Below are positions 14,393 to 31,534 of a stretch of DNA of 31,534 nucleotides, one piece after another. The notes under the pieces are model-generated. The model saw nothing but the letters and a program-made list of their open reading frames with translations. It was not told the origin of the DNA and did no database searches. Location of the stretch: the IMG/VR virus record IMGVR_UViG_3300022223_000282, positions 1-31,534 of that record; one strand, given 5' to 3'. Within the stretch, counting starts at the first letter, position 1. Each line of letters starts with the position of its first letter. This DNA comes from a virus. Made by a program: the position numbers and the translations under genes.

Positions 14393-15319
14393 TTAATCCT
14401 CCGTTCCAAAAAGCCATCCTAACTTCCAGCTTCCTTTCTCGCGTTTGAAAACCAGTTTAGCATAAGTGTTAAGCAGCTCCCAATCTGCCGTCTTGAAAAC
14501 CTCTTTCTTCATTGCTTCTTTCAGCTTGCACCAACGCTCATAATCAAAAGCGTAAATCACTTGTTCCGCTTTCACTTTTCCTCTGTGCAATATGAGAAGC
14601 CAATACTTGCCATCTGCATCTGTAATCTTCCGCATTGCTTCTTCTTGGTGAGGCTTAAAGACTTCTGGGTTGAATCTGTTCTGTTGTGTACTTTTACATT
14701 CAATTAGATGGAAGCGTCCCTCACTACAAGCGAGAAAGTCAGCTGGCTGCTTAGGAGCAAAGAAGCGTGGATTAAGGTGAATGAAAGTTTGATAATCGTA
14801 AATCCTCATAAACCAGAATCCGAATCCTTGACACCTTTCAACTAAACGTTTAAACGCATTGCTGACCATCTGCTCAAACGCTTTTCCTTGGCGTCTTTTT
14901 GAGTGAATTTTCTGGCGATAAAGGATTGCCCATATCTTTGTAACTTCACGATAAACCGCATGCTTCTTAACATCAACTTCTTCTTCTTTTAACATTTCAA
15001 ACAAGTAGCCCATGCTGTTAAAGATAATGCCATAAAGAGCTTCTTTGATTCCTCCTCTGCTTTCATATCCTCTATGCTCCAACCATAAATCCATGAAGTG
15101 TCGAAACATGCTTTTCATATATGCTGTTTTAGGTATGCCTTTCTGCCAATTGTCTGACTCTCTAAGCTGTCCGTCAGATTGCAGGCGGTGTTTATTCATA
15201 TATTCTGCATAGGCTTTGAGGACTAGTGGATTTAGAAAACCTTCATAATCTAACTTGCCTAAATCTGTGTCTCGAGTTGCTCCTGTTTCAAACTTCCTTA
15301 TCTTGCCTTCTTCTTTCAT
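14393..15319 (-). CDS. DUF5664-like domain fused to RecU/Hjc-type nuclease
   Basis: The product has 308 residues. Residues 7-112 match the phage DUF5664 family (dATP/dGTP diphosphohydrolase N-terminal domain), with KFETGATRDTDLGKLDYEGF (9-28), SDNWQKGIP (55-63) and an RHFMDLW helix. Residues about 140-300 look like a RecU/Hjc Holliday-junction resolvase: GKAFEQ (Glu149), PADF (Asp194), IECKS (Glu207, Lys209) and a later HQ pair. The combination is unusual. The first domain is normally tied to nucleotide-pool proteins and the second resolves recombination intermediates. The ATG overlaps the upstream stop (ATGA) and has GGAGG upstream. Confidence 0.78.
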   Translation of the reverse strand: MKEEGKIRKFETGATRDTDLGKLDYEGFLNPLVLKAYAEYMNKHRLQSDGQLRESDNWQKGIPKTAYMKSMFRHFMDLWLEHRGYESRGGIKEALYGIIFNSMGYLFEMLKEEEVDVKKHAVYREVTKIWAILYRQKIHSKRRQGKAFEQMVSNAFKRLVERCQGFGFWFMRIYDYQTFIHLNPRFFAPKQPADFLACSEGRFHLIECKSTQQNRFNPEVFKPHQEEAMRKITDADGKYWLLILHRGKVKAEQVIYAFDYERWCKLKEAMKKEVFKTADWELLNTYAKLVFKREKGSWKLGWLFGTED

Positions 15320-18739: not shown

Positions 18740-20916
18740 TACCAATCCCTCTTTTTAGGCTTATATTGCTCATCTTCTTCAGGTTCAGCGTCTGGTAAAT
18801 CTTCAACAGAAACACAGACGGTCACTGCAAAACGGACTTTCAGAATTTTTTGTTCGGATTTTTTTATTTCGCATTTCTCGGTGACCGACTGACCGACTGA
18901 TTCAAGAAATTTTAAAGTTTGCTCATACATCTTTTCTATGTTAAGCTCAACTTCGACAGTTCCTGCTTCTTCTATGAAACTGTAAACTCTCTTTCCTGCT
19001 TTTCCTCTTTCTTTCAAAAGTAAGAATTTGTCGTTTTCCATTCTTTTAAGCCATCGTCTCGCTGTCTCTAAACTGCACACACCAACAATCTTAGCTAAAT
19101 TCTCTGCTGTAATAGGCTTATTATGTTCCGCTATCTCCTTTACTTTGTCTTTCATTTCTCTGTAGCGCTGTGTCTCGCCTGTAAACGTGCCTATTATTGC
19201 TTCGTTTCCATATTCCCAAGCGTAGAGGAAATCTTGAGGCAAGCAAACAAGAACAGGTGTTCCTTTATCATCTACAATCGGACGATTCTTTGAATGTAGT
19301 AGTGCAGAAGCATAGATTAAACGCATCATTTTCTCTACGTCTCTTGCTGCTCGTGGATTATTCCATAATTTCTCAAACATTGGAAGCGTTTCAGTCATGT
19401 ATGGAATGACACATTCTTTAGGAGCGTCTTTCAAAATTTCAACTGCACATCTAACTATTTTTCGTGCTTTCTCTGCTGGGCTGTACATCCGTTCTGAAGG
19501 AAGTTTTCCTCCTTCTTCCTCAATTTTCTTTCTTACAATTTCAGGTGTTAAACTCTTGTCTGTTGTTATTTCCCAAACTCGATTCTGTAACTCGCTTGGA
19601 ATCTCTGTGTCTGTTGTTGTGCTTATAATGTTAGCTATTGAAGTCTCAATAATCCGTGTCTTCATTCTTTTTGTTTCTTCATCTCGCTCAACAACTAAGA
19701 TTTTTAGTTTTCCTTCACTTATAACCAGCTTAATGTCAAACTGTGCTGTTGTTTCTTCTCCTGCTCTTGCTCCGACAGCTTTCCATTCAGCAAGGTAAAG
19801 ATGCTTAATGTCTTCATCTAAATACCTTATTGCTTTGTCTGTTACTCCTGTAATCTTGAACCATCTGTGCCGTGGAAAACAGTCGAAAACTCTGTCTGCC
19901 ATGTAGCTCTTGCCTGTGGATGTGTCACCTTGCACATGGACGCTTTCTTCTACAAGATTAAGCAGGAAAAGGCTGACTTTCTGTTTTCTGTGTCCTATAA
20001 TGTCGCTGAAAACTTCTTTTTCTATCCATTCTAAAACGTTTTCTCGCTTCAATAACTCTTCTGCCATGCTGTAATCTTGCTTGTTGAAAAGTTCTTTGTC
20101 CATTACGCCTTTAGCAAACTTGTAATTGTATGCTTCTTCTCTTTCATACGCACTGTCCAATGTCCTCTTTAACTCATCTTGCTCTAAAGGCGGTTTGTTT
20201 TTATTTGTGTTCCAAAGCTTTAATTGCTCCCATCCTTCTTCTTTCGTTAATCTTCTCCGCCTGTAATATGAAGCAACAATTATTGCTGCATTGTTCCGCT
20301 TTCCTTCTTCTACACCTGTAAGCAACTCGTTTATGTTGACTTCTTCTTTACCTAGCTTCTCATCAAACTTCTTTTCTATTAGCTCAATTAAATCTTGCTT
20401 TAAATCTCCGTGCCATTCCATTATACTATGCTCAGGCAAGAAAATTTTAGGCTCGTATGATGCTCCTGAAGGATGAATGCTTGACGGAGCTAACACGTAG
20501 CCTCCTTCTGCTTTTACGTCTATAGCAACTTTTTCACCGCTTAACTTGAAACTGCGGATTGGAAAGTCTGTTCTAACATAAACATGGAAGCCTCTTGCTG
20601 TGCGTACAACAAACGTTTTATCTTCAATGTCAGCTCCGAATAATGTATGCAAAATCTTTCCTTTCTTTGTGTCGTTGTCAATGTCAATAACAGCAAGATT
20701 TCCACTGATTTTTCCGCCGACAACAGCAATGTTAAATGTTGAGTGTTTCCATGCTAAAGCTTCATCTTCTGTTGGCTTACGCTCTTGAAACTCTTCCCAT
20801 TTTGTTAATGGTTCTTTCGACTTTTCTTTACATTGGAAGAAACTGAAACCTTGCTTAACGTACCATTCAACAAAATTTTTCTTCTTTTCACTTTGCCTTT
20901 TAACTTTTCTTGTCAT
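18739..20916 (-). CDS. PrimPol-helicase replication initiator
   Basis: The product has 725 residues. The archaeo-eukaryotic primase/polymerase domain occupies about 15-175: LAVIDIDND (Asp78, Asp80), TARGFHVYV (His111) and IDVKAEGGYVLAPSS (Asp133). A PriCT-like linker covers about 195-260. An ATPase/helicase follows with Walker A VQGDTSTGKS (328-337) and LYLAEW as the Walker B region. A winged helix (about 590-660) and a beta-rich tail end the chain. It would prime and unwind at the origin with PolB. Residues 673-681 are encoded by a 26-bp sequence also found inverted at 10801-10826. The start follows GAGGAAGAAAC and overlaps folE. Confidence 0.92.
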   Translation of the reverse strand: MTRKVKRQSEKKKNFVEWYVKQGFSFFQCKEKSKEPLTKWEEFQERKPTEDEALAWKHSTFNIAVVGGKISGNLAVIDIDNDTKKGKILHTLFGADIEDKTFVVRTARGFHVYVRTDFPIRSFKLSGEKVAIDVKAEGGYVLAPSSIHPSGASYEPKIFLPEHSIMEWHGDLKQDLIELIEKKFDEKLGKEEVNINELLTGVEEGKRNNAAIIVASYYRRRRLTKEEGWEQLKLWNTNKNKPPLEQDELKRTLDSAYEREEAYNYKFAKGVMDKELFNKQDYSMAEELLKRENVLEWIEKEVFSDIIGHRKQKVSLFLLNLVEESVHVQGDTSTGKSYMADRVFDCFPRHRWFKITGVTDKAIRYLDEDIKHLYLAEWKAVGARAGEETTAQFDIKLVISEGKLKILVVERDEETKRMKTRIIETSIANIISTTTDTEIPSELQNRVWEITTDKSLTPEIVRKKIEEEGGKLPSERMYSPAEKARKIVRCAVEILKDAPKECVIPYMTETLPMFEKLWNNPRAARDVEKMMRLIYASALLHSKNRPIVDDKGTPVLVCLPQDFLYAWEYGNEAIIGTFTGETQRYREMKDKVKEIAEHNKPITAENLAKIVGVCSLETARRWLKRMENDKFLLLKERGKAGKRVYSFIEEAGTVEVELNIEKMYEQTLKFLESVGQSVTEKCEIKKSEQKILKVRFAVTVCVSVEDLPDAEPEEDEQYKPKKRDW
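18874..18899 (-). repeat. 26-bp element, copy 2, inside PrimPol
   Basis: This is the exact reverse complement of 10801-10826. It lies in the C-terminal part of the PrimPol gene, where it encodes SVGQSVTEK. The two tandem GTCGGTCA octamers read along the coding strand. Confidence 0.8.
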
Positions 20917-21505
20917 GTTTCTTCCTCTGTTGCCTTTTTATCACCATTAAAATTTCTTCTCGGAACCGGTGAGCGTTGTCGCCAACAGCGTAAAGTCCTC
21001 TAGCTGCTGTTGTAACTGTGACTGTCTCCTGCTTTTTGACTCCTCTCTGCATCATGCACAGGTGCTTTCCTTCCACCATGACAAAGACGGCTTTAGGGTG
21101 CAAATTTTCGTTAAACCATAATGCGTCTGCAACCTGGTTGGTTAAACGTTCTTGAATCTGCAAGCGGCGACTATACATCTCTACAAGCCTAGCAAGTTTT
21201 GATAACCCAACCACGTTTTTGGAAGGCATATAAGCAATGTGAACCTTACCGTAGAATGGAAGCAGGTGATGCTCACATAAGCTGTAAAACTCAACTGTCT
21301 CGTAAACAACATCTGAACCTTTCTCTTCAAACGTCTTTCCTAAAACGTCTTCTTCTTTCTTATTGTATCCTGAAGTAAGCTCGATTAAAGCGTTAGAAGC
21401 TCTTTTTGGAGTGTTTTTCTTGATTTCTGTCGAGAATTTACCTTTCTTGCTTAAGACGTCTAGTATCCACATATATAATTGCTCGTATTCTTTTTCTTCG
21501 TCCAT
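20900..21505 (-). CDS. folE: GTP cyclohydrolase I (FolE type)
   Basis: The product has 201 residues, a standard length. Zinc ligands are Cys77 and His80 in SLCEHHLLPF and Cys150 in HLCMMQRGV. A GLSKLARLV helix (100-108) and SRRLQIQERLT segment (112-122) complete the tunnel-fold signature. It converts GTP to 7,8-dihydroneopterin triphosphate, the first step to 7-deazaguanine. Many archaea use the unrelated MptA/FolE2 route, so a viral FolE may bypass the host enzyme. Its start overlaps the stop of the 73-residue gene (TAATG) and its end overlaps PrimPol by 17 bp, linking base synthesis to replication. Confidence 0.93.
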   Translation of the reverse strand: MDEEKEYEQLYMWILDVLSKKGKFSTEIKKNTPKRASNALIELTSGYNKKEEDVLGKTFEEKGSDVVYETVEFYSLCEHHLLPFYGKVHIAYMPSKNVVGLSKLARLVEMYSRRLQIQERLTNQVADALWFNENLHPKAVFVMVEGKHLCMMQRGVKKQETVTVTTAARGLYAVGDNAHRFREEILMVIKRQQRKKHDKKS

Positions 21506-21726
21506 TATGGTTCATCCCAATCTGGAGCATAATCACTCATATCAAACTCTAATGTGACGCTTTCCGAGAACACAATGTAAATTCTATCTCCTTTTCGGAC
21601 AGCAGTAAAATAATGGTTTCCATCACAGCCTTTCATTATTTCGTTTTCCTTTAATTCCAACATTCTTTTGAGTGTTTGGTCATCTAACTTTAATTCTATT
21701 TCAACTTCGTCTTCAACTTCAGGCAT
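21505..21726 (-). CDS. Small acidic protein between dpdA and folE
   Basis: The product has 73 residues, very acidic at both ends (EVEDEVEIELKLDD at 3-16, DYAPDWDEP at 65-73), with a strand-turn-strand core (YFTAVRKGDRIYIVF, about 39-53). The start is backed by GGAGG. It overlaps the DpdA stop by 8 bp and the folE start by TAATG, so it is an integral member of the modification operon. No family is recognised. It may be a partner protein or DNA mimic, which is speculation. Confidence 0.7.
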   Translation of the reverse strand: MPEVEDEVEIELKLDDQTLKRMLELKENEIMKGCDGNHYFTAVRKGDRIYIVFSESVTLEFDMSDYAPDWDEP

Positions 21727-22651
21727 GTGTCTTCCATCCTCCTATTTTCTGTCTTAAAAAAGCGTCAAGCATTCTGGTTGTTACTGGCTTTCCTTCTCGC
21801 CTTATACTGTTGCATGCTTCTTCGTACAAGAGGAAGAATTTAGCTTGGTAAAACACTCTTAGAATCCAGCTTCGCTTGTATTCTGTGCTTAAATTATAGA
21901 TTGAAAATCCGAAAGTTTGCAAATATGTGGTTAAAAGCGTCTTGTCTTTCTCGTCTAAGTCTCCAACAAACTTGCATCCTGTTGTTCCTCCGATTCCTTG
22001 AGTGCTCATTCCACCTTCATATCGCTGGCTGAAACCGATGTAACCAAACGGAGTGTCAATGGTTGCAAATTTTGACGCTCGCAAGACCCATCCTGTACTG
22101 TCAGCAGAATAAAAGTTGTATTCAGCAAGAACGCCAAGATGAGTTAAAGCGAAAAGATGAAAGTTCTGTTTTGGAAACTCTGTTATTAACGTCTTAGCTA
22201 AATGTTTTCTGTCTTGACTTGCTGCTAACGTAGCAAATCCTATGCCAACAATATTATAGCTTCCAATGTAATCTTTTAAAACGTTAAACGGTTCTTTAGC
22301 ATGCCAGACTGGAATAGGTTTAAGTCCAGCTTCTTCCATAAGCTTCTGGTTTTTAAGTGTTTTCTCCCAGCTGTTAATGTCATCTAAGTTAGCGTATGTT
22401 TCAGGCTGGTGAAATTGCAGAAAATCAATGTAATCCATAATGTTGATTTCTGCTTCTTGCGTGAATGCTGAATAAGCTCCGCTGTCAATAAATAAATCTT
22501 TATCTGTGCCGTAATATTCAGCAAGCTTATGCTTCTTTTCTTTTAAAAATTTAGGAACATAGAAGAATGATAACAAGCGCCTTTTAACACCTGCAATATC
22601 AAGAATAATAGCGTAATCCTGTGTTTCTCCGCCGGCAAAATAGAGTTTCAT
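21719..22651 (-). CDS. dpdA: DpdA-like DNA guanine transglycosylase
   Basis: The product has 310 residues. It resembles the TGT-related DpdA enzymes that swap guanine in DNA for a 7-deazaguanine. The conserved acidic residues appear as LFIDSGAYSAF (Asp56) and YSADSTGW (Asp184), with a VGIGFATL strand (135-142) and HLFALTHLG (165-173) as in the family's barrel. A longer frame extends 25 codons upstream, but that stretch overlaps another gene (22656-22763), and AGGTGATTTT points to the ATG at 22651. It sits among queE, queD and folE, which make its substrate. The zinc site of tRNA TGTs is not evident. Confidence 0.85.
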   Translation of the reverse strand: MKLYFAGGETQDYAIILDIAGVKRRLLSFFYVPKFLKEKKHKLAEYYGTDKDLFIDSGAYSAFTQEAEINIMDYIDFLQFHQPETYANLDDINSWEKTLKNQKLMEEAGLKPIPVWHAKEPFNVLKDYIGSYNIVGIGFATLAASQDRKHLAKTLITEFPKQNFHLFALTHLGVLAEYNFYSADSTGWVLRASKFATIDTPFGYIGFSQRYEGGMSTQGIGGTTGCKFVGDLDEKDKTLLTTYLQTFGFSIYNLSTEYKRSWILRVFYQAKFFLLYEEACNSIRREGKPVTTRMLDAFLRQKIGGWKTHA

Positions 22652-22655
22652 AAAA

Positions 22656-22763
22656 TCACCTGCTAAAAGCGTAACTCCACCAACATTTACTGCAATCCCA
22701 ATTGTACAGACACGGTATCGGAGCATACTTACATTCTTTCTTAGATTCCTTCTTCTTGCTCAT
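22656..22763 (-). CDS. 35-residue cysteine-rich mini-protein
   Basis: The frame encodes 35 residues. After a basic start (SKKKESKKE) come four cysteines in the order C-x6-C-x5-C-x2-C (residues 11-27) with several aromatics (NWDCSKCWWSY). A single zinc or Fe-S site is likely. Its ATG overlaps the previous stop in an ATGA junction, and its stop lies 4 nt before dpdA, leaving no untranslated space. It is far too short for routine gene calling but well supported by junctions and composition. Confidence 0.6.
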   Translation of the reverse strand: MSKKKESKKECKYAPIPCLYNWDCSKCWWSYAFSR

Positions 22764-22882
22764 TTCTCCATAACCCTCCAACCTTCACATTCTCCTCCAT
22801 TCCTGCTGTTAGCTGGACATTTCTTACATGATTTTAAGATTGGAAATGGACATTCAGGCTCAGATAATCCTTGCCCTTTCAT
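22760..22882 (-). CDS. 40-residue cysteine-rich mini-protein
   Basis: The frame encodes 40 residues with cysteines in C-x7-C-x2-C-x9-C order (ECPFPILKSCKKC onward). The ATG overlaps the queD stop (ATGA), and GGAGCAAGG lies upstream. An in-frame extension upstream runs through queD and is rejected. Together with the 35-residue gene it fills the queD-dpdA interval. It probably binds zinc or an Fe-S cluster; the function is unknown. Confidence 0.62.
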   Translation of the reverse strand: MKGQGLSEPECPFPILKSCKKCPANSRNGGECEGWRVMEK

Positions 22883-23238
22883 GGATACCTTGCTCCGCAA
22901 TTTTCGGTTTCCCAGACGGTGACGGAGGAAACATAAGCTGCAATTTTTTCCATTTTTAAGACACAATTCAAAGTGTTAAAGACGATATAGGCAATGTTCT
23001 CTGCTGTTGGAGGAGTTTTAATCACATCGTTAATCAGTTTATGGTCAAAATCTTCAGATACATATTGCTTAACTATTCGCTTTAACGTTCCAAACTCAAC
23101 TGTTATTCCGTTTTTGTTTGGTTCTGAAACGTTGAAAGCTACTTCTATATGGTAAGTGTGTCCGTGAACATTTCCACACTTATGGTGTCCAGGCAGGTAA
23201 TGAGCTGCGTCAAACTTGTCTCGAATAATCAGCTTCAT
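22879..23238 (-). CDS. queD: 6-carboxytetrahydropterin synthase (QueD)
   Basis: The product has 119 residues, the family size. Zinc ligands are His13, His25 and His27 in FDAAHYL and NVHGHTY. The catalytic Cys21 lies in HHKCGNVHGH, and FDHKLIND (about 74-81) carries the partner Asp and His. Substrate-binding Glu lies near the C-terminal VWETENCGA. It converts dihydroneopterin triphosphate, the FolE product, to 6-carboxytetrahydropterin. The ATG at 23238 has GGTGGAAG upstream and lies 1 nt after the queE stop. An earlier in-frame Met overlaps queE heavily and is rejected. Confidence 0.93.
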   Translation of the reverse strand: MKLIIRDKFDAAHYLPGHHKCGNVHGHTYHIEVAFNVSEPNKNGITVEFGTLKRIVKQYVSEDFDHKLINDVIKTPPTAENIAYIVFNTLNCVLKMEKIAAYVSSVTVWETENCGARYP

Positions 23239-23239
23239 T

Positions 23240-23947
23240 TTACTTCCACCCATAAAGCTTGTGTAGCTGTGGAAGAACACGAACATTGTTTAATTCTTGT
23301 GATAAAACCCAATTTTTGATTTGTTGAATTAGTTTTCCAGAAAGAATCGAATCTTCCTTTCCTTCTGGCTGCAATATGACAGGCATCCTAGCAATTGGTA
23401 TTACATGCTTTAAAGCGAATACAAAATCGTCTAAATCTTTAATGACAACTTTAACTTCACATTGGAAGCCGTTGTCATATCGCAAGTTAAGATTTCGCAA
23501 GCAGCCTATCTCACTCTTCATCTTGCTGCTTGGCGGCTTCATGTCCATGCTGATAAAATTACACTCTTCAAAAATGTCCTCATCATAAATTGTTCCGTTA
23601 GTGAAAAGGTGCCTGTAATATCCATAGTCGCCTAAAAGACGCAATAATTCTCTTAACTCATCTCTAGGCTGCACTAACGGTTCTCCGCCTGTGATACAGA
23701 CGGCTTTTAATGTTGAGATTTTACTTATTTCCTCAAACAATTCTTTAACTGAATATTCCTGATAAGCTGAAAAACGCCACATTTTAACTGCTTCTTCATC
23801 CAAATATCCTTTAGGTTCGTATGAGTAAGGTGTATCACACCAGCTACAGCGGAGGTTACAGCCCCAGAAACGGATGAAAAGTTGAGGCATTCCAATGTTT
23901 AATCCTTCTCCTTGAATGCCGACAAAAATCTCGTTTACTTTGAGCAT
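23240..23947 (-). CDS. queE: 7-carboxy-7-deazaguanine synthase (QueE, radical SAM)
   Basis: The product has 235 residues. The radical-SAM cluster is CNLRCSWC (Cys30, Cys34, Cys37). It is followed by DTPYSY, GGEPL (about 97-101), a THE-like LFTNGT strand, and the N-terminal IFVGIQGEG that binds the substrate. It rearranges the QueD product to 7-carboxy-7-deazaguanine. The start is preceded by GGAGG and overlaps the previous mini-gene by 13 bp. It leads the modification genes folE, queD and dpdA. The next enzyme of preQ0 synthesis, QueC, is not in the window. Confidence 0.93.
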   Translation of the reverse strand: MLKVNEIFVGIQGEGLNIGMPQLFIRFWGCNLRCSWCDTPYSYEPKGYLDEEAVKMWRFSAYQEYSVKELFEEISKISTLKAVCITGGEPLVQPRDELRELLRLLGDYGYYRHLFTNGTIYDEDIFEECNFISMDMKPPSSKMKSEIGCLRNLNLRYDNGFQCEVKVVIKDLDDFVFALKHVIPIARMPVILQPEGKEDSILSGKLIQQIKNWVLSQELNNVRVLPQLHKLYGWK

Positions 23948-24144: not shown

Positions 24145-24293
24145 TTCTTTTCCTCCAACCATTCTTTCGGTGTTTTTTTCTCAGTGTGTTTTTCTATGTA
24201 TCGCCAACATTTCTTGTATTCTTTTAAACATCTATATTGCCAACTGTCTTTGTCAAGTCGTATATCACACGTTTCAATGTCTGGACAGCTCAA
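24141..24293 (-). CDS. Cysteine-rich protein, CPDI family (50 residues)
   Basis: The frame encodes 50 residues starting at TTG (24293) with AGGAG just upstream. The TTG overlaps the stop of the homing endonuclease gene. Cysteines in SCPDIETCD and YRCLKEYKKCWRY align with its downstream paralogue. The stop overlaps the next ATG (ATGA). Junctions on both sides and the shared motif support a real gene. Confidence 0.62.
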   Translation of the reverse strand: MSCPDIETCDIRLDKDSWQYRCLKEYKKCWRYIEKHTEKKTPKEWLEEKK

Positions 24294-24748
24294 AATGCTC
24301 CTTTCCTGTTCAGCTTGTGAATCTGCTGTCGAATCTTCTCTAGCCGCTGAACGTATGGCGTGTAGCCTGCTCCATGCTGTTGGATTAAATCTTCAGCTTC
24401 TAAAAGCAACTTTCGTTGCTGTTCTTTTCCGACTAAAACAAGCTGGCTTAACACTTGCTTTGCTTGCTGTCCTTCTAATTCCCAGACATAAACTGTCTTT
24501 AACTTCTCGCTGTGTCTTTCACTTTTCCAAAAATGCCCTTGATTTGTAATTTTTAAAGAGTGTTCAATAATGAGGATGTTAGTGTTAGTGACGGTGACGC
24601 AGACTCGGAACGTATTGCCGAACCGCTTTAACATTAAGCTGCCATCGCCGTCTATTACACCTGCAAGCCATCCACGCTCGTAAGCTGGAAGTCTGCTTGG
24701 TTTACGCCGTTGAATTTTCTCTCTTAATACCGTTATGATGTTTCGCAT
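24290..24748 (-). CDS. LAGLIDADG homing endonuclease 1
   Basis: The product has 152 residues from the ATG at 24748; a TTG three codons earlier is in frame. One LAGLIDADG motif is present (WLAGVIDGDGSL, about 27-38), so it should work as a dimer. The C-terminal third (VLSQLVLVGKEQQRKLLLEA) matches that of the second endonuclease nearby. It is a stand-alone gene and not inside an intron or intein, as its ends are translationally linked to neighbours. A TATA-like box at 24781-24788 lies about 33-40 nt upstream, making it the first gene of the modification operon. Confidence 0.88.
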   Translation of the reverse strand: MRNIITVLREKIQRRKPSRLPAYERGWLAGVIDGDGSLMLKRFGNTFRVCVTVTNTNILIIEHSLKITNQGHFWKSERHSEKLKTVYVWELEGQQAKQVLSQLVLVGKEQQRKLLLEAEDLIQQHGAGYTPYVQRLEKIRQQIHKLNRKGAF

Positions 24749-24780
24749 GATAATCAAAAAACAACGTCTAAAGCGTGTGT

Positions 24781-24831: not shown

Positions 24832-25047
24832 TTATGTGTTCTTTCTTAGATATTTCAAAATATGTTCTACTTTCACTTTGTCTCCTAACTCTTTCATTAA
24901 AATTTTTTCTAAAATATCACTTTCTAAAGCAGCTCTTAAAAGATTAGAAGCTATAACATGGATTTGGAGGTCACCATAAAGTTTAATAAGTGAAAGCTTA
25001 TGATGTACGTCTTTAGCTATGTAAACATATTTTTCTTCTCTACCCAA
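24832..25047 (-). CDS. Ribbon-helix-helix-like small regulator
   Basis: The product has 71 residues. A KYVYIAKDV strand (6-14) is followed by two helices (about 15-24 and 29-43, IHVIASNLLRAALE), as in CopG/ParD-type ribbon-helix-helix proteins, and then a charged helical tail. The start is TTG at 25047, preceded by AAAGGTG, overlapping the stop of homing endonuclease 2 by 8 bp. No toxin gene sits next to it. It may control the promoter at 24781-24788, which lies just downstream of its stop. The call is moderate. Confidence 0.6.
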   Translation of the reverse strand: MGREEKYVYIAKDVHHKLSLIKLYGDLQIHVIASNLLRAALESDILEKILMKELGDKVKVEHILKYLRKNT

Positions 25048-25507
25048 AACTGATACACCTTTTATGTATATTTAATTGGCGAAATTCCTCATTAATTTCA
25101 AATAATCTTTTGTTAGTTTCGGTTTTTTCTCCTTCTAATATTTGTATTGCTTCCAACAACAATTTACGTTGTTTTTCTTTTACAATTAAAGTTAATTGAG
25201 ACAGAAGTTTTTCGATGCCGTCTCTTGCCATTAATTTATAATTATATGCAGGAAGCCATTCTTTTTTCCGAGAATAATATGGATGAATTGAACCAGAACC
25301 GATAACCTCTCGAATTTTTTCTAAGAATTGAAGATTGATATTTGATACTTCAACACTAATTCGCCAATTTTTATATTTTTTGCTTTTTGGTCTTCCGAAA
25401 TATAAATGTCCGTCTGAATCCAAAATACCTGCAAGCCAACCTCTTTCATATTCTGTTAAAGTTTTTATGAGGACGATTTTTCTTCTTTTGTCTCTTTGAA
25501 TTTCCAT
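25040..25507 (-). CDS. LAGLIDADG homing endonuclease 2
   Basis: The product has 155 residues. One motif, WLAGILDSDGHL (about 24-35), is present, so it is a dimeric type. The C-terminal LLSQLTLIVKEKQRKLLLEA is clearly related to endonuclease 1. The ATG at 25507 overlaps the Cas4-like stop (TAATG), with GGAGG upstream. A 19-codon in-frame extension is therefore unlikely. Such insertion directly behind an essential gene, with a translational junction, is typical of free-standing homing genes of tailed viruses. Confidence 0.88.
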   Translation of the reverse strand: MEIQRDKRRKIVLIKTLTEYERGWLAGILDSDGHLYFGRPKSKKYKNWRISVEVSNINLQFLEKIREVIGSGSIHPYYSRKKEWLPAYNYKLMARDGIEKLLSQLTLIVKEKQRKLLLEAIQILEGEKTETNKRLFEINEEFRQLNIHKRCISFG

Positions 25508-26268
25508 TATGTCTTCCTCCAGAATTGACAATGTTCTTTGTAAACTTTTGGACATTGCTTGCACTTGAAACAGTTTGGTGCTCCTCTTGGAGGAATAACC
25601 ATGTCATGGTCTTGTAATCCTTCTAAAACTCTTAACAATTCCGTTTCAAACTGCACAGGATAATAAAAGACTGGAAAACTTGCTAAAGGTTCACGCTTCA
25701 CTAAAACACGCATGCCTTTCTCTTGCCGATATTTAACATGCCATAATTCAACAGCGTGAATCTTATCTAGCTCATATCCTATTTCTTTAATGTAAGGCTC
25801 AAGAATGAAACAGTAACCTTGACATTGGAATTGCTTAATTGGAAGACGGTAGCGAATATAAAAATCAAGTTGTTTCTCGCTGATTTCCGTTGTATTAATC
25901 TCTATGATGCTGACTTTCTTTGCTTTTGTTACTTGAAACTCATCTGGATGTCCACTAACGTCAAAGAAAACATGGTCTTTTCCTAACCGCCTTACAAAAC
26001 CATATTTATCTTGCCTAAACTTGTCTAGTTTCTCTAGGAAAGAGGTCTCCCAAATCCAACGTTTAACTTCTTCTTTTCGCTCTTTATGTATCTGTGTTCC
26101 AACTTCTTTCTGTCTTTTAGCTCCTGCATAAATGCCTCTAGCTTGCCAGTACGCTTGCTCGGCACACCAAAACCAGTGAGCAGTAGTTGACATCCTATAT
26201 CTGCCGACTTTTGATTCGGCAAGCTTGATTTCTCGTAAAGCAAACATAGAATGTTTCGGAATAGACAT
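25507..26268 (-). CDS. Cas4-like Fe-S nuclease with altered active site
   Basis: The product has 253 residues. Cys35 (FWCAEQAYW) and a C-terminal set (CFKCKQC at 233-239, Cys247) match the four-cysteine Fe-S cluster of Cas4/AddB-like nucleases. The nuclease core has His61, Asp109 (GHPDEF) and Glu123, but the catalytic Lys of the E-x-K motif is replaced: the sequence reads IIEINTTE, so the residue is Asn125. A Gln motif (FQCQGY, about 147-152) follows. The protein may use another Lys nearby or be a DNA-binding relic. The start has TGAGG upstream, and no cas genes surround it. A recombination or replication role is more likely. Confidence 0.75.
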   Translation of the reverse strand: MSIPKHSMFALREIKLAESKVGRYRMSTTAHWFWCAEQAYWQARGIYAGAKRQKEVGTQIHKERKEEVKRWIWETSFLEKLDKFRQDKYGFVRRLGKDHVFFDVSGHPDEFQVTKAKKVSIIEINTTEISEKQLDFYIRYRLPIKQFQCQGYCFILEPYIKEIGYELDKIHAVELWHVKYRQEKGMRVLVKREPLASFPVFYYPVQFETELLRVLEGLQDHDMVIPPRGAPNCFKCKQCPKVYKEHCQFWRKT

Positions 26269-28192: not shown

Positions 28193-29530
28193 TTAATGCG
28201 TATGTTTGGGGTCGGTAATGTTGTGTCCGTGATAAGGAGAACTTACGCCGTGTCCGTGAGTAGGCGAATTAACAGCGTGTGTATGAGCACCAGACATAAA
28301 AAGGTAATCAACGTAATAGTCCACGTAAGTATGCCGATGTCCTTCTACTTCGCTCGTGTATCTAGTTTCTTGTTCTAACGAAATATTGTGCTGATGTACA
28401 CCTGAATCAACGTTAGAGTCGGCATCGGCACCATCAACGGCAGAATCAATATCTTTTCCACTTTGTGCACCAATTCCCGTTCCAATTGTGCTTAACTGCG
28501 TGTTTTGTGCAAATTCTTCACCACGTCTTTTCAGGTCATTTACGAATCCTTCGCCTGTTTCAACCAGAAATTCAGCGTTACTTGTTATCTTGGTTAAGTT
28601 GCAAATTCTGATTATTGTTTCTTCACCAGCGTTAGCGTCAAAGCTTCGTTCTATCTCCATAATACGATAATTTTCCTCAACGCCAATTGTTGTGTCAACA
28701 ATTTTAATCGTATCATACACATCATAAGCGTGTCCTTCATACGTGTCTATTACACGAGTTGCACCGTATTCCACAGTGTTCTGAAAGTCTGCAAGTAATC
28801 CGTTTGCTGCTTTTTGGCATGTATTATCGTCTATTAAGTTTTTGCGGTTTATTGTTTTTTCCGGTACGCCAACTTCTCCGCCTGCAATTCCATATTTCAT
28901 GTAGATGCCCTGTCCCATTCCTATCACGATAATTCTTTCAACTTTATGGTTCACGCTTGTTGTGTGCGAGTCAACCCAATCATCCAGTAATTCGCCACGT
29001 TTAAAAACGACTTCGCTTGAACGGTCTGTTCCGCACTGCTGTTTAAAATCTACTTTTCCGTCTGGATGAACGTAAAGTTCGTATCCCATTACGAACACGA
29101 TTTCTTGTAATACTTTGAGTCTGTCAAACTTAGCGTTTTCTTCGCTTCCATACTCCATTGTTATCTGGTCGCCGTTCTGTATTGTTCCAGCACTCAAATC
29201 CGTGCCTGCAAGCTGATTGCTTACTTGTATTCCTGCATAAACGTTCGATTCTACTCGATTAACTGCTTTCTTTGGTTTAAGACTGTGTAATAAAGCGTAG
29301 CCTTTCAATTCCAGTCTGTTATTGCCTCTCTTTCTTATTGATTTAATTCGCCCTTTAAACACAAGTTGGTTATCACGGAAAATCTCGCAAAAATCGTCAA
29401 TTGAGAAAGATTCGCCTGTATATGGTATTTCAACAGTAAATGCTTGCAATTCCAACTTGTAGCTTCTGATGTAATGCACATTTAAAAGCGGATATTCCGT
29501 TCCTGCAATTTTTACACTATAAGTTACCAT
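28193..29530 (-). CDS. Tail hub/tip protein with His-rich C-terminus
   Basis: The product has 445 residues. Residues 1-310 resemble the gpD/gp27-like hub fold of siphovirus tails, with FCEIFRDNQLVFKGRIKSIR (about 47-66), QEIVFVMGYELYVHPDGKVDF (143-163), and YEGHAYDVYDTIKI (about 265-280), common in baseplate hub proteins. Residues about 340-390 are a linker rich in Gly/Ser/Asp. The last 49 residues contain HxH motifs (GHRHTY, GAHTHAV, THGHGV, YHGHNI, KHTH), which in phage tips bind metal ions in trimeric fibres. It follows the tape measure with a 7-bp overlap. Confidence 0.78.
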   Translation of the reverse strand: MVTYSVKIAGTEYPLLNVHYIRSYKLELQAFTVEIPYTGESFSIDDFCEIFRDNQLVFKGRIKSIRKRGNNRLELKGYALLHSLKPKKAVNRVESNVYAGIQVSNQLAGTDLSAGTIQNGDQITMEYGSEENAKFDRLKVLQEIVFVMGYELYVHPDGKVDFKQQCGTDRSSEVVFKRGELLDDWVDSHTTSVNHKVERIIVIGMGQGIYMKYGIAGGEVGVPEKTINRKNLIDDNTCQKAANGLLADFQNTVEYGATRVIDTYEGHAYDVYDTIKIVDTTIGVEENYRIMEIERSFDANAGEETIIRICNLTKITSNAEFLVETGEGFVNDLKRRGEEFAQNTQLSTIGTGIGAQSGKDIDSAVDGADADSNVDSGVHQHNISLEQETRYTSEVEGHRHTYVDYYVDYLFMSGAHTHAVNSPTHGHGVSSPYHGHNITDPKHTH

Positions 29531-30684
29531 TTACCTCCCAACCTTTCTATAATCCGCCTGTAAGCTCTGTCTCCTACAGTGTCAAAATCTACTTCTTTCG
29601 TTATGACATTGTGTTGAGTAACGTTTACTTCTCGTATTCCGGCAGGTAAAGTTAGCATTCCTTTTCTTTCAGCTTCGTAAAAGCGTGTTTCACCCGGTGT
29701 TAAAACTCTTTCTTTCGGATGCAGATAATAATATCCTTCTGTTGGAACACTTGGAATCCCAAACTGTCCTCCTCTTCCCCATCTTCCTCCTCCGCTAACA
29801 GCTTCAAATATGGGTCCGGCAGCTTCAGCTTCTACTTTCATTCTTTCCCATGCTTCGGCAATTTCATTTATGTTTTGTATTGCTCCTTTACCATGCTCTT
29901 CTACGCTGATAGCCCAGTCAGCTTGAGCTTTCATTGCTGCATCAGCATCTTTCTGGAAAGCAAGATAGATTGGAATAGCGAAAGCAGCGACAACAGCTAG
30001 CCCACTAAGTGTTCCTGCTAACAATGTTGCTGAGCCAAAAACAGCTGTTATTGCACTTCCTAAAGAACCGAAACCTTTAGTTAAAGCAGCTATTAATCCT
30101 GCTGTGCCACCTAGCATTTTTATTGATAACGTTACCATAGCAATGTCTCCGACTATTCCTATTATGCTTGGACCTAGAGTTATCCAATAACCTATCATGC
30201 TCTGGCTTGCTTGCTTTTGTGCTGCTTCTGCGTCTTCTACTGCTTTCTGATATTGCTCTACCATGTCTTTAGCTTCAAGATAATAGACGCTGTCTTCTCC
30301 GAAGTCATGTAAGTATTGGTTCATTAAATTCTGCCATTTTGTTAACTCGGCTTTAGCGTCTGTTACATCTCGTGTTGCACGCTCAACTCTTATCATGCCA
30401 ACGTTGTATGCTTGCCATAAATTGATTAAGCGGTCTCCGATGCGTCCTATACTCTGCATTACTTGGATTGCTTGTCTAAACTCGTATGTTTGAGCTCGCT
30501 GTGTCATACGCATGCCGCTGTAAGCACGGTTTAACGCTCGTGTTGCTTCCATGTTTTCTTTCTGTGCTTGATTAAACTCTTTAACGCTGTATTTTCCTTC
30601 TTTGAAAGCTTGAACAATCTCTTTCTGGCTGCGTAAAACGTCTTCTAAACCGTAAACACGATAGACAGTTGGAATTTCAGCCAA
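29524..30684 (-). CDS. Tail tape measure protein (short)
   Basis: The product has 386 residues. It starts with coiled-coil helices (about 10-165). A hydrophobic Gly/Ala-rich stretch follows (about 165-255, with WITLGPSIIGIVGDIAMVTL), then helices, and the end has the tape-measure C-terminal pattern IPSVPTEGYYYLHPKERVL (about 317-335). The length implies a short tail, about 55-60 nm if 0.15 nm per residue applies; that factor is from siphoviruses in general. The gene precedes the hub and follows the tail completion protein, the usual order. No lytic domain is visible. Confidence 0.8.
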   Translation of the reverse strand: MAEIPTVYRVYGLEDVLRSQKEIVQAFKEGKYSVKEFNQAQKENMEATRALNRAYSGMRMTQRAQTYEFRQAIQVMQSIGRIGDRLINLWQAYNVGMIRVERATRDVTDAKAELTKWQNLMNQYLHDFGEDSVYYLEAKDMVEQYQKAVEDAEAAQKQASQSMIGYWITLGPSIIGIVGDIAMVTLSIKMLGGTAGLIAALTKGFGSLGSAITAVFGSATLLAGTLSGLAVVAAFAIPIYLAFQKDADAAMKAQADWAISVEEHGKGAIQNINEIAEAWERMKVEAEAAGPIFEAVSGGGRWGRGGQFGIPSVPTEGYYYLHPKERVLTPGETRFYEAERKGMLTLPAGIREVNVTQHNVITKEVDFDTVGDRAYRRIIERLGGKW

Positions 30685-31027
30685 GCTTGAAAACCTCCTT
30701 TAATCTTTTCCTCATCTCTTCTACGTAAAAATAGACGTTGCCGAACCAGAACGGCTGAGTTTTTATCTTTGCTGTTCCAAACTCAACGTAAGCAGCATAA
30801 GGACAATATGCTCCTAACTCAGCTTTTAGTTCAAACAAATTTAAATCTTTAACTATAATGCTTGCTTGAAGTCTTCCTGTATCTACAGGCACAATGCTTC
30901 TCGCTGCTTCTACGGTTTCTCGTGCTGCTTCTTCTAAAATTTTGAAGATTTCAGGCTTAGCTGCTTTGCTTATCTTTTCAAGTTGGAGAAGAAATTTTTC
31001 TGTTTGCATATCACATTCTACTGGCAT
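30677..31027 (-). CDS. HK97-gp10-like tail completion protein
   Basis: The product has 116 residues. VPVDTGRLQASIIV (about 46-59) and YAAYVEFGT (about 79-87) are the signature of the HK97 gp10/minor tail family that links head connector and tail tube. A Met five codons upstream is in frame; the downstream ATG at 31027 is chosen because it reduces overlap with the chaperone extension (17 bp left). The choice is not certain. It lies between the chaperone and the tape measure, as expected for a tail-assembly gene. Confidence 0.8.
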   Translation of the reverse strand: MPVECDMQTEKFLLQLEKISKAAKPEIFKILEEAARETVEAARSIVPVDTGRLQASIIVKDLNLFELKAELGAYCPYAAYVEFGTAKIKTQPFWFGNVYFYVEEMRKRLKEVFKLG

Positions 31028-31534
31028 CTTTTTCCCTCTCATAATCTTCTGAAAGTAAGATTAACTCGACTTGAACATCTCTCACATACATTTTGTTTAT
31101 CTCCTCAAACGACCATCCGTACCTTTTCGCTAGCAGATGACGGACAACATGATGGTTAAGTAAACTTTTGCTTGTTTTCTGCAGCAGCTTGACTATTCGC
31201 TTGACTCTTTTACTCGTTGCTTTTGCTCCTTTATATGTAAGGATTGTGATGGCGATTCTGCTAAAGGGAGCGTGTTTAAACTTCTTGTTGCTATGTCTAA
31301 CTCGTATCCTTCAGCTTCAGGTAAGTCTGCTATTTCTTCCGCTGTCATTTCTGGCTCTACGAGCATTTTCTGTATTCTTAATACTTTCAACTTTTTCGTG
31401 CTGGGTTTCAGCAAAAGTGTCTTTTCATCTATTTCTGTAGCTTCATCTGTTATAGTGCATGACTCACCGAATGTTAAAGGTTTCAATTTGTATGTTTTTC
31501 CTGAAATTACACTTTTGAATTCTTTAACTTCCAT
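31011..31534 (-). CDS. Tail assembly chaperone, -1 frameshift fusion (GT-like)
   Basis: From codon 87 (Asn, ending at 31274) a -1 slip continues into an 87-codon frame that ends at 31011. It has no useful start codon of its own. The fusion has 174 residues. The extension is basic and helical and ends with HHVVRHLLAKRYGWSFEEI, typical of gpT-type extensions (Tyr-Gly-Trp-Ser then Glu-Glu-Ile). The -1 frame upstream of the slip has stops near 31314, so the open overlap is short and contains the slippery site. Confidence 0.72.
31193..31534 (-). CDS. Tail assembly chaperone, short form (G-like)
   Basis: The product has 113 residues, with its ATG exactly at the right edge of the window; a further upstream start cannot be excluded. 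The N-terminal strand-helix pattern (VKEFKSVISGKTYKLKPLTF, then helices with IDEKTLLL and MTAEEIADLPEAEG) is that of small tail chaperones. Like lambda gpG, it precedes the tape measure and shares its N-terminal 87 residues with a frameshifted product. It contacts the tape measure during tail assembly and is absent from virions in known cases. Confidence 0.7.
   Translation of the reverse strand: MEVKEFKSVISGKTYKLKPLTFGESCTITDEATEIDEKTLLLKPSTKKLKVLRIQKMLVEPEMTAEEIADLPEAEGYELDIATRSLNTLPLAESPSQSLHIKEQKQRVKESSE
31262..31280 (-). promoter_or_regulatory. Slippery heptamers for programmed -1 frameshift
   Basis: In frame on the minus strand, T-TTA-AAC occupies 31280-31274 and C-CCT-TTA 31268-31262. 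Both are canonical X-XXY-YYZ heptamers. Directly after the first, GCTCCCTTTA can pair with TAAAGGAGC about 28 nt downstream (9 bp with one bulged C), a possible stimulatory stem, although its spacer is only 2 nt. Confidence 0.65.

Follow-up and report, generated by a model that had tools for sequence, protein, structure and literature searches.

Overlapping frames at the end of a viral record

The window, meaning the whole stretch of DNA analysed here, is the complete IMG/VR record IMGVR_UViG_3300022223_000282 (31,534 bases). It carries the genes of a small tailed virus, namely an HK97-type capsid, terminase, portal (recognised through its relatives), Prim-Pol and a family B polymerase, and also encodes GTP cyclohydrolase, PTPS and radical-SAM proteins. 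The minus strand begins, at the contig end, with a 113-aa ORF overlapped by a second frame; this pair is followed by one HK97-gp10-like gene, a tape measure gene and a hub-like gene (Table 1). With the A of the 113-aa ORF's ATG the window comes to its last base, and an upstream ribosome-binding site and a tail-tube gene would lie beyond the contig end. Both ends of the record (1 and 31534) coincide exactly with gene borders: at one end the 1-303 ORF has its stop, and at the other the 113-aa ORF has its ATG. The record thus looks cut from a longer contig at predicted genes.

Table 1. Features of the chaperone locus and of the tail genes downstream of it (positions in the window)
Feature	Position	Strand	Remarks
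G ORF (frame 0), short chaperone, 113 aa	31193..31534	-	its ATG forms the final codon of the contig; TAG stop ending at 31193
T frame (-1 relative to G), about 100 codons	31011..31310	-	open after TGA at 31313; ends in TGA 31013-31011
Candidate slip site T_TTA_AAC	31274..31280	-	in frame-0 phase
Candidate slip site C_CCT_TTA	31262..31268	-	in frame-0 phase; 12 bases after T_TTA_AAC
HK97-gp10-like tail-completion protein	30677..31042	-	PF04883 4e-11; PHROG 5 9e-15; overlaps the end of T
Tape measure protein, 386 aa	29524..30684	-	PHROG 58 3e-6
Hub-like tail protein	28193..29530	-	weak matches to hub-like proteins of the relatives G005, G008 and G010

An earlier note on this DNA had proposed that the first gene is a tail chaperone gene with a programmed -1 frameshift. 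The layout on which it relied was recovered in full: the end of frame 0, the extent of the open -1 frame and the 174-residue length of the predicted GT fusion are all as it described, and, as it also held, the T frame has no start until near its end, the first ATG, GTG or TTG being codon 74 of about 100. The part of T past the slip is predicted to be made only within the 174-residue fusion. The two frames share an overlap of 39 codons in which a shift could occur. Beyond the frame-0 stop, the -1 frame stays free of stop codons for 60 codons, an event with a chance of about 0.009 at the base composition of this region; each of the other two frames is interrupted by stops in the same stretch. 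Codon usage past the frame-0 stop scores +0.05 per codon in the -1 frame versus -0.58 and -0.20 in the other two frames; this is below the typical genes of this virus (+0.21).

The heptamers T_TTA_AAC and C_CCT_TTA do lie in the overlap in the correct phase, as had been noticed from the letters. Canonical in-phase heptamers of the form XXXYYYZ occur 35 times in the other genes of the window, which amount to approximately 9,400 codons (about one per 270), and TTTAAAC itself is found there in phase six times, presumably without effect; a single heptamer is therefore weak evidence. The chance of at least one canonical heptamer in a 39-codon overlap is 0.14, and that of at least two is 0.009. Two in-phase heptamers thus constitute moderate evidence, and the window by itself gives a moderate case. 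C_CCT_TTA is as canonical a candidate as T_TTA_AAC; either could be the site used.

The stem-loop that had been thought possible in the overlap proved no better than chance: folds downstream of either window site showed no structure beyond that of shuffled sequences (z = +0.39 and -0.29). A stem-loop stimulator was also sought in seven relatives and was unsupported (z from -1.6 to +0.8 versus shuffles). Just upstream of the slip site, several relatives have a Shine-Dalgarno-like GAGGA; as it is absent from the window's site, it is not put forward as part of the signal.

The chaperone pair in related viruses

Ten related IMG/VR records (G001-G010) were reached by terminase, polymerase and portal alignments, seven of them (G004-G010) through the portal, at about 40% identity. 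Single-protein searches of IMG/VR with the fusion, tape measure, terminase, capsid or polymerase yielded no relatives, and the fusion protein had no match in annotated phages, nor in G001-G003.

In six of the seven portal relatives (G004-G008 and G010), the genes follow in the order tube, overlapping ORF pair, HK97-gp10, tape measure and hub, which is the order of the window as far as the window reaches; the HK97-gp10-like homologues occupy the same place, and in G005, G008 and G010 the hub-like protein follows the tape measure, as it does in the window. In G004, the protein preceding the pair is a recognisable tube protein (PF18906 1e-16), and gp10 and the tape measure come after the pair. 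The G proteins of these six relatives are 43-88% identical to that of G004. In all six, the second frame is -1 relative to the first, and an in-phase slip heptamer stands at one identical codon: T_TTT_TTA in G004, G005, G007 and G008, and T_TTT_TTG in G006 and G010. These are heptamers of the HIV-1 type, and they occur in phase only twice in the approximately 25,600 codons of the relatives' other large genes. At 33% terminase identity, G002 is a more distant relative; its TTTTTTA lies in an overlap located between its tube protein and its tape measure. Since six portal relatives and G002 share the layout with a slip heptamer, having a frameshifted chaperone at this position is characteristic of the virus group. 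Two T domains were scanned, those of G004 and G005; both match PHROG 9001, tail assembly chaperone (1e-12 and 2e-9, respectively). Four pairs of relatives were compared for substitutions in the T frame past the G stop: in three of them third codon positions change most often, and in the remaining pair, G004/G008, the substitutions are nearly even across codon positions.

The relatives bear on three ways of obtaining such a layout without ribosomal frameshifting. First, the window is a single metagenomic contig, and two such frames would also arise if one continuous chaperone gene had undergone a true frameshift mutation or had been misread or misassembled by one base; the joined gene would yield the same 174-residue protein. 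This is improbable, since seven related records independently have two overlapping -1 frames here together with a conserved slip heptamer, and since the window's own overlap contains two canonical in-phase heptamers. Second, T could be a separate product, arising through re-initiation or from an unusual start codon: the frames overlap, the T frame is open, and non-standard starts such as ATA or CTG are conceivable. No ATG, GTG or TTG precedes codon 74 in the window, however, and none of the six portal relatives has a start codon ahead of the conserved part of its second frame, the finding that would have told against the earlier proposal had it gone the other way; we consider separate synthesis of T very improbable. 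Third, the frames could be joined by transcriptional slippage, the polymerase slipping on the run of six T that the relatives' sites hold. At both window sites the longest run of identical bases is three, so that transcriptional slippage is unlikely there, though possible at the relatives' T runs; as an account of the gene it seems to us the least probable of the three. At the level of the virus group, the relatives decide the case for frameshifting, and the -1 programmed frameshift proposed in the earlier note is well supported by the layout of the seven relatives, their in-phase heptamers and the PHROG 9001 matches of the two T domains scanned. Of the two features that the note proposed to look for in related viruses, TTTAAAC and the -1 frame, the frame is conserved; the conserved heptamer is T_TTT_TTA/G or TTTTTTA rather than TTTAAAC.

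The remaining relatives have other arrangements. In G009, on the minus strand of C1 (9833-10340; L113), the second chaperone frame stands in the +1 relation to the first instead of -1, the overlap holds TTT_TTT_CGT, and a GTG or ATG within eight codons of the beginning of the second frame is a possible start of its own. G001 and G003, the closest relatives by their replication genes, have no chaperone pair in their tail module, which differs from that of the window. This other module (G001, L086:7174-11198; G003, L093:6130 onward) includes a possible neck protein (weak PHROG matches), then a conserved 150-aa protein, a protein of about 190 aa with a hydrophobic stretch, and a hub-like protein; no long tape measure was seen in it.

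Relation of the window's gene to the relatives' chaperones

Among 329 window ORFs, none scores better than the -1 frame when compared with a profile built from the relatives' T domains; its E-value (0.066) is close to that of the next ORF. In a profile comparison, the YGWSFEEI segment of the window aligns with FGWTPTQL of the relatives (E = 0.004). The window's G protein shows 21-24% aligned identity with the relatives' G proteins and a weak match to PHROG 9046, of unknown function (E = 0.003); an AlphaFold model of it was unusable (mean pLDDT 38). Taken together, the weak protein matches, the position and the layout appear sufficient to regard these as the same gene, most likely a lambda-like G/GT pair. 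When the T sequences are aligned, the point at which the relatives slip comes to lie within the T part of the window; the window therefore shifts earlier, and the slip sites are not homologous by position.

We therefore favour, with a probability of roughly 0.85, a tail-assembly chaperone of the lambda G/GT type made with a -1 frameshift. Most ribosomes would finish the 113-residue G protein, and a minority, stepping back by one base at either T_TTA_AAC or C_CCT_TTA, would continue in the -1 frame and produce the 174-residue GT fusion. By analogy with lambda, G would be expected to cover the tape measure and the T domain to bring in tail-tube subunits, so that the G:GT ratio would matter for tail assembly. 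Several points speak against this reading: the weak direct homology, a slip site unlike that of the relatives, no stimulatory structure, poor codon usage in T, and no pair in G001 and G003.

Known and predicted frameshifted chaperones and the possible archaeal host

The slip heptamer of lambda is G_GGA_AAG, different from those of the window, and the window has an HK97-gp10-like gene between chaperone and tape measure. The two systems share a short protein with a -1 extension encoded upstream of the tape measure gene, a T without a start of its own and a canonical heptamer; in lambda, the ratio of G alone to GT is set, G binds the tape measure and T binds the tube protein (PMC5009743). T is also in the -1 frame in the Bacillus phages Finn, Riggi and Bolokhovo (Andromedavirus), and the T domain of G004 is homologous to the annotated chaperones of such phages, Finn and Riggi among them (5e-6). 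These phages differ from the window in their site, A_AAA_AAA or A_AAA_AAG, which in Finn and Bolokhovo precedes the G stop by a few codons, and in having the chaperone directly before the tape measure.

Among archaeal tailed viruses, -1 frameshifted chaperones have been predicted in the haloarchaeal viruses HVTV-1, HCTV-1/2/5 and Hardycor1 (PMC5009743, PMC7911831). Their predicted G/GT pairs resemble the window's in layout; their heptamers are different, and their host is known. The window case thus extends a known kind. The HF1 group of haloviruses similarly has a pair of overlapping chaperone frames flanked by the tail tube and tape measure genes, with a +1 shift proposed at TTT-CGC (TTT_CGN being the proposed +1 motif) where the window has -1 (PMC7230728). 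G009 has this +1 layout, unlike the window.

The earlier note had taken the window for an archaeal virus, which we retain as a suggestion only: the family B polymerase with Prim-Pol in the window, and an archaeal-type Hjc resolvase (PF01870 3e-6) in the distant relative G002, make an archaeal host plausible, and sequence alone does not show it. Two pattern scans of GTDB genomes found no relative and are uninformative on the host either way. The text of a paper on Bathyarchaeia viruses, consulted for a clue to the host, makes no mention of these contigs. As a separate observation, the family B polymerase of G002 appears split between C1 25165-26943 (L089) and 14502-15110 (L088), the first piece ending just after a DTDG motif and the C-terminal piece lying about 10 kb away.

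The UUUAAAC site had further been presented as a clean test of -1 frameshifting in archaea. This view is not supported: the archaeal host is only suggested, C_CCT_TTA is equally canonical, and the case would not be the first. A review counts one experimentally shown archaeal -1 frameshift, that of Sulfolobus fucA1, beside the halovirus predictions (PMC8211752). The mechanism itself is classical. What is added is a frameshifted tail chaperone, with a slip site conserved across related records, in a group probably infecting archaea; the sites are compact and without detectable RNA structure, and could be placed in archaeal reporters. Tentatively, and with rather less than even confidence, we suggest that this probably archaeal group of uncultured tailed viruses keeps a frameshifted chaperone and varies both where the ribosome slips and in which direction. 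The signal would then have varied from T_TTT_TTA/G in most members to the tandem T_TTA_AAC and C_CCT_TTA in the window virus and to a +1 layout in G009 with TTT_CGT, which resembles the +1 motif of the HF1 group.

Two other regions of the window were noted. At 20900-23947, genes for GTP cyclohydrolase I, a QueD-like PTPS and a QueE-like radical-SAM protein lie beside a conserved 335-aa protein (21719-22726), which has no Pfam match, is 63% identical in G003 and is read by us, as an assumption, as DpdA-like; this gene set would suggest 7-deazaguanine modification of the DNA. The ORFs at 24290-24757 and 25040-25564 have translations with YERGWLAG...DGD/DSDG segments, and presumably encode homing endonucleases of the LAGLIDADG type.
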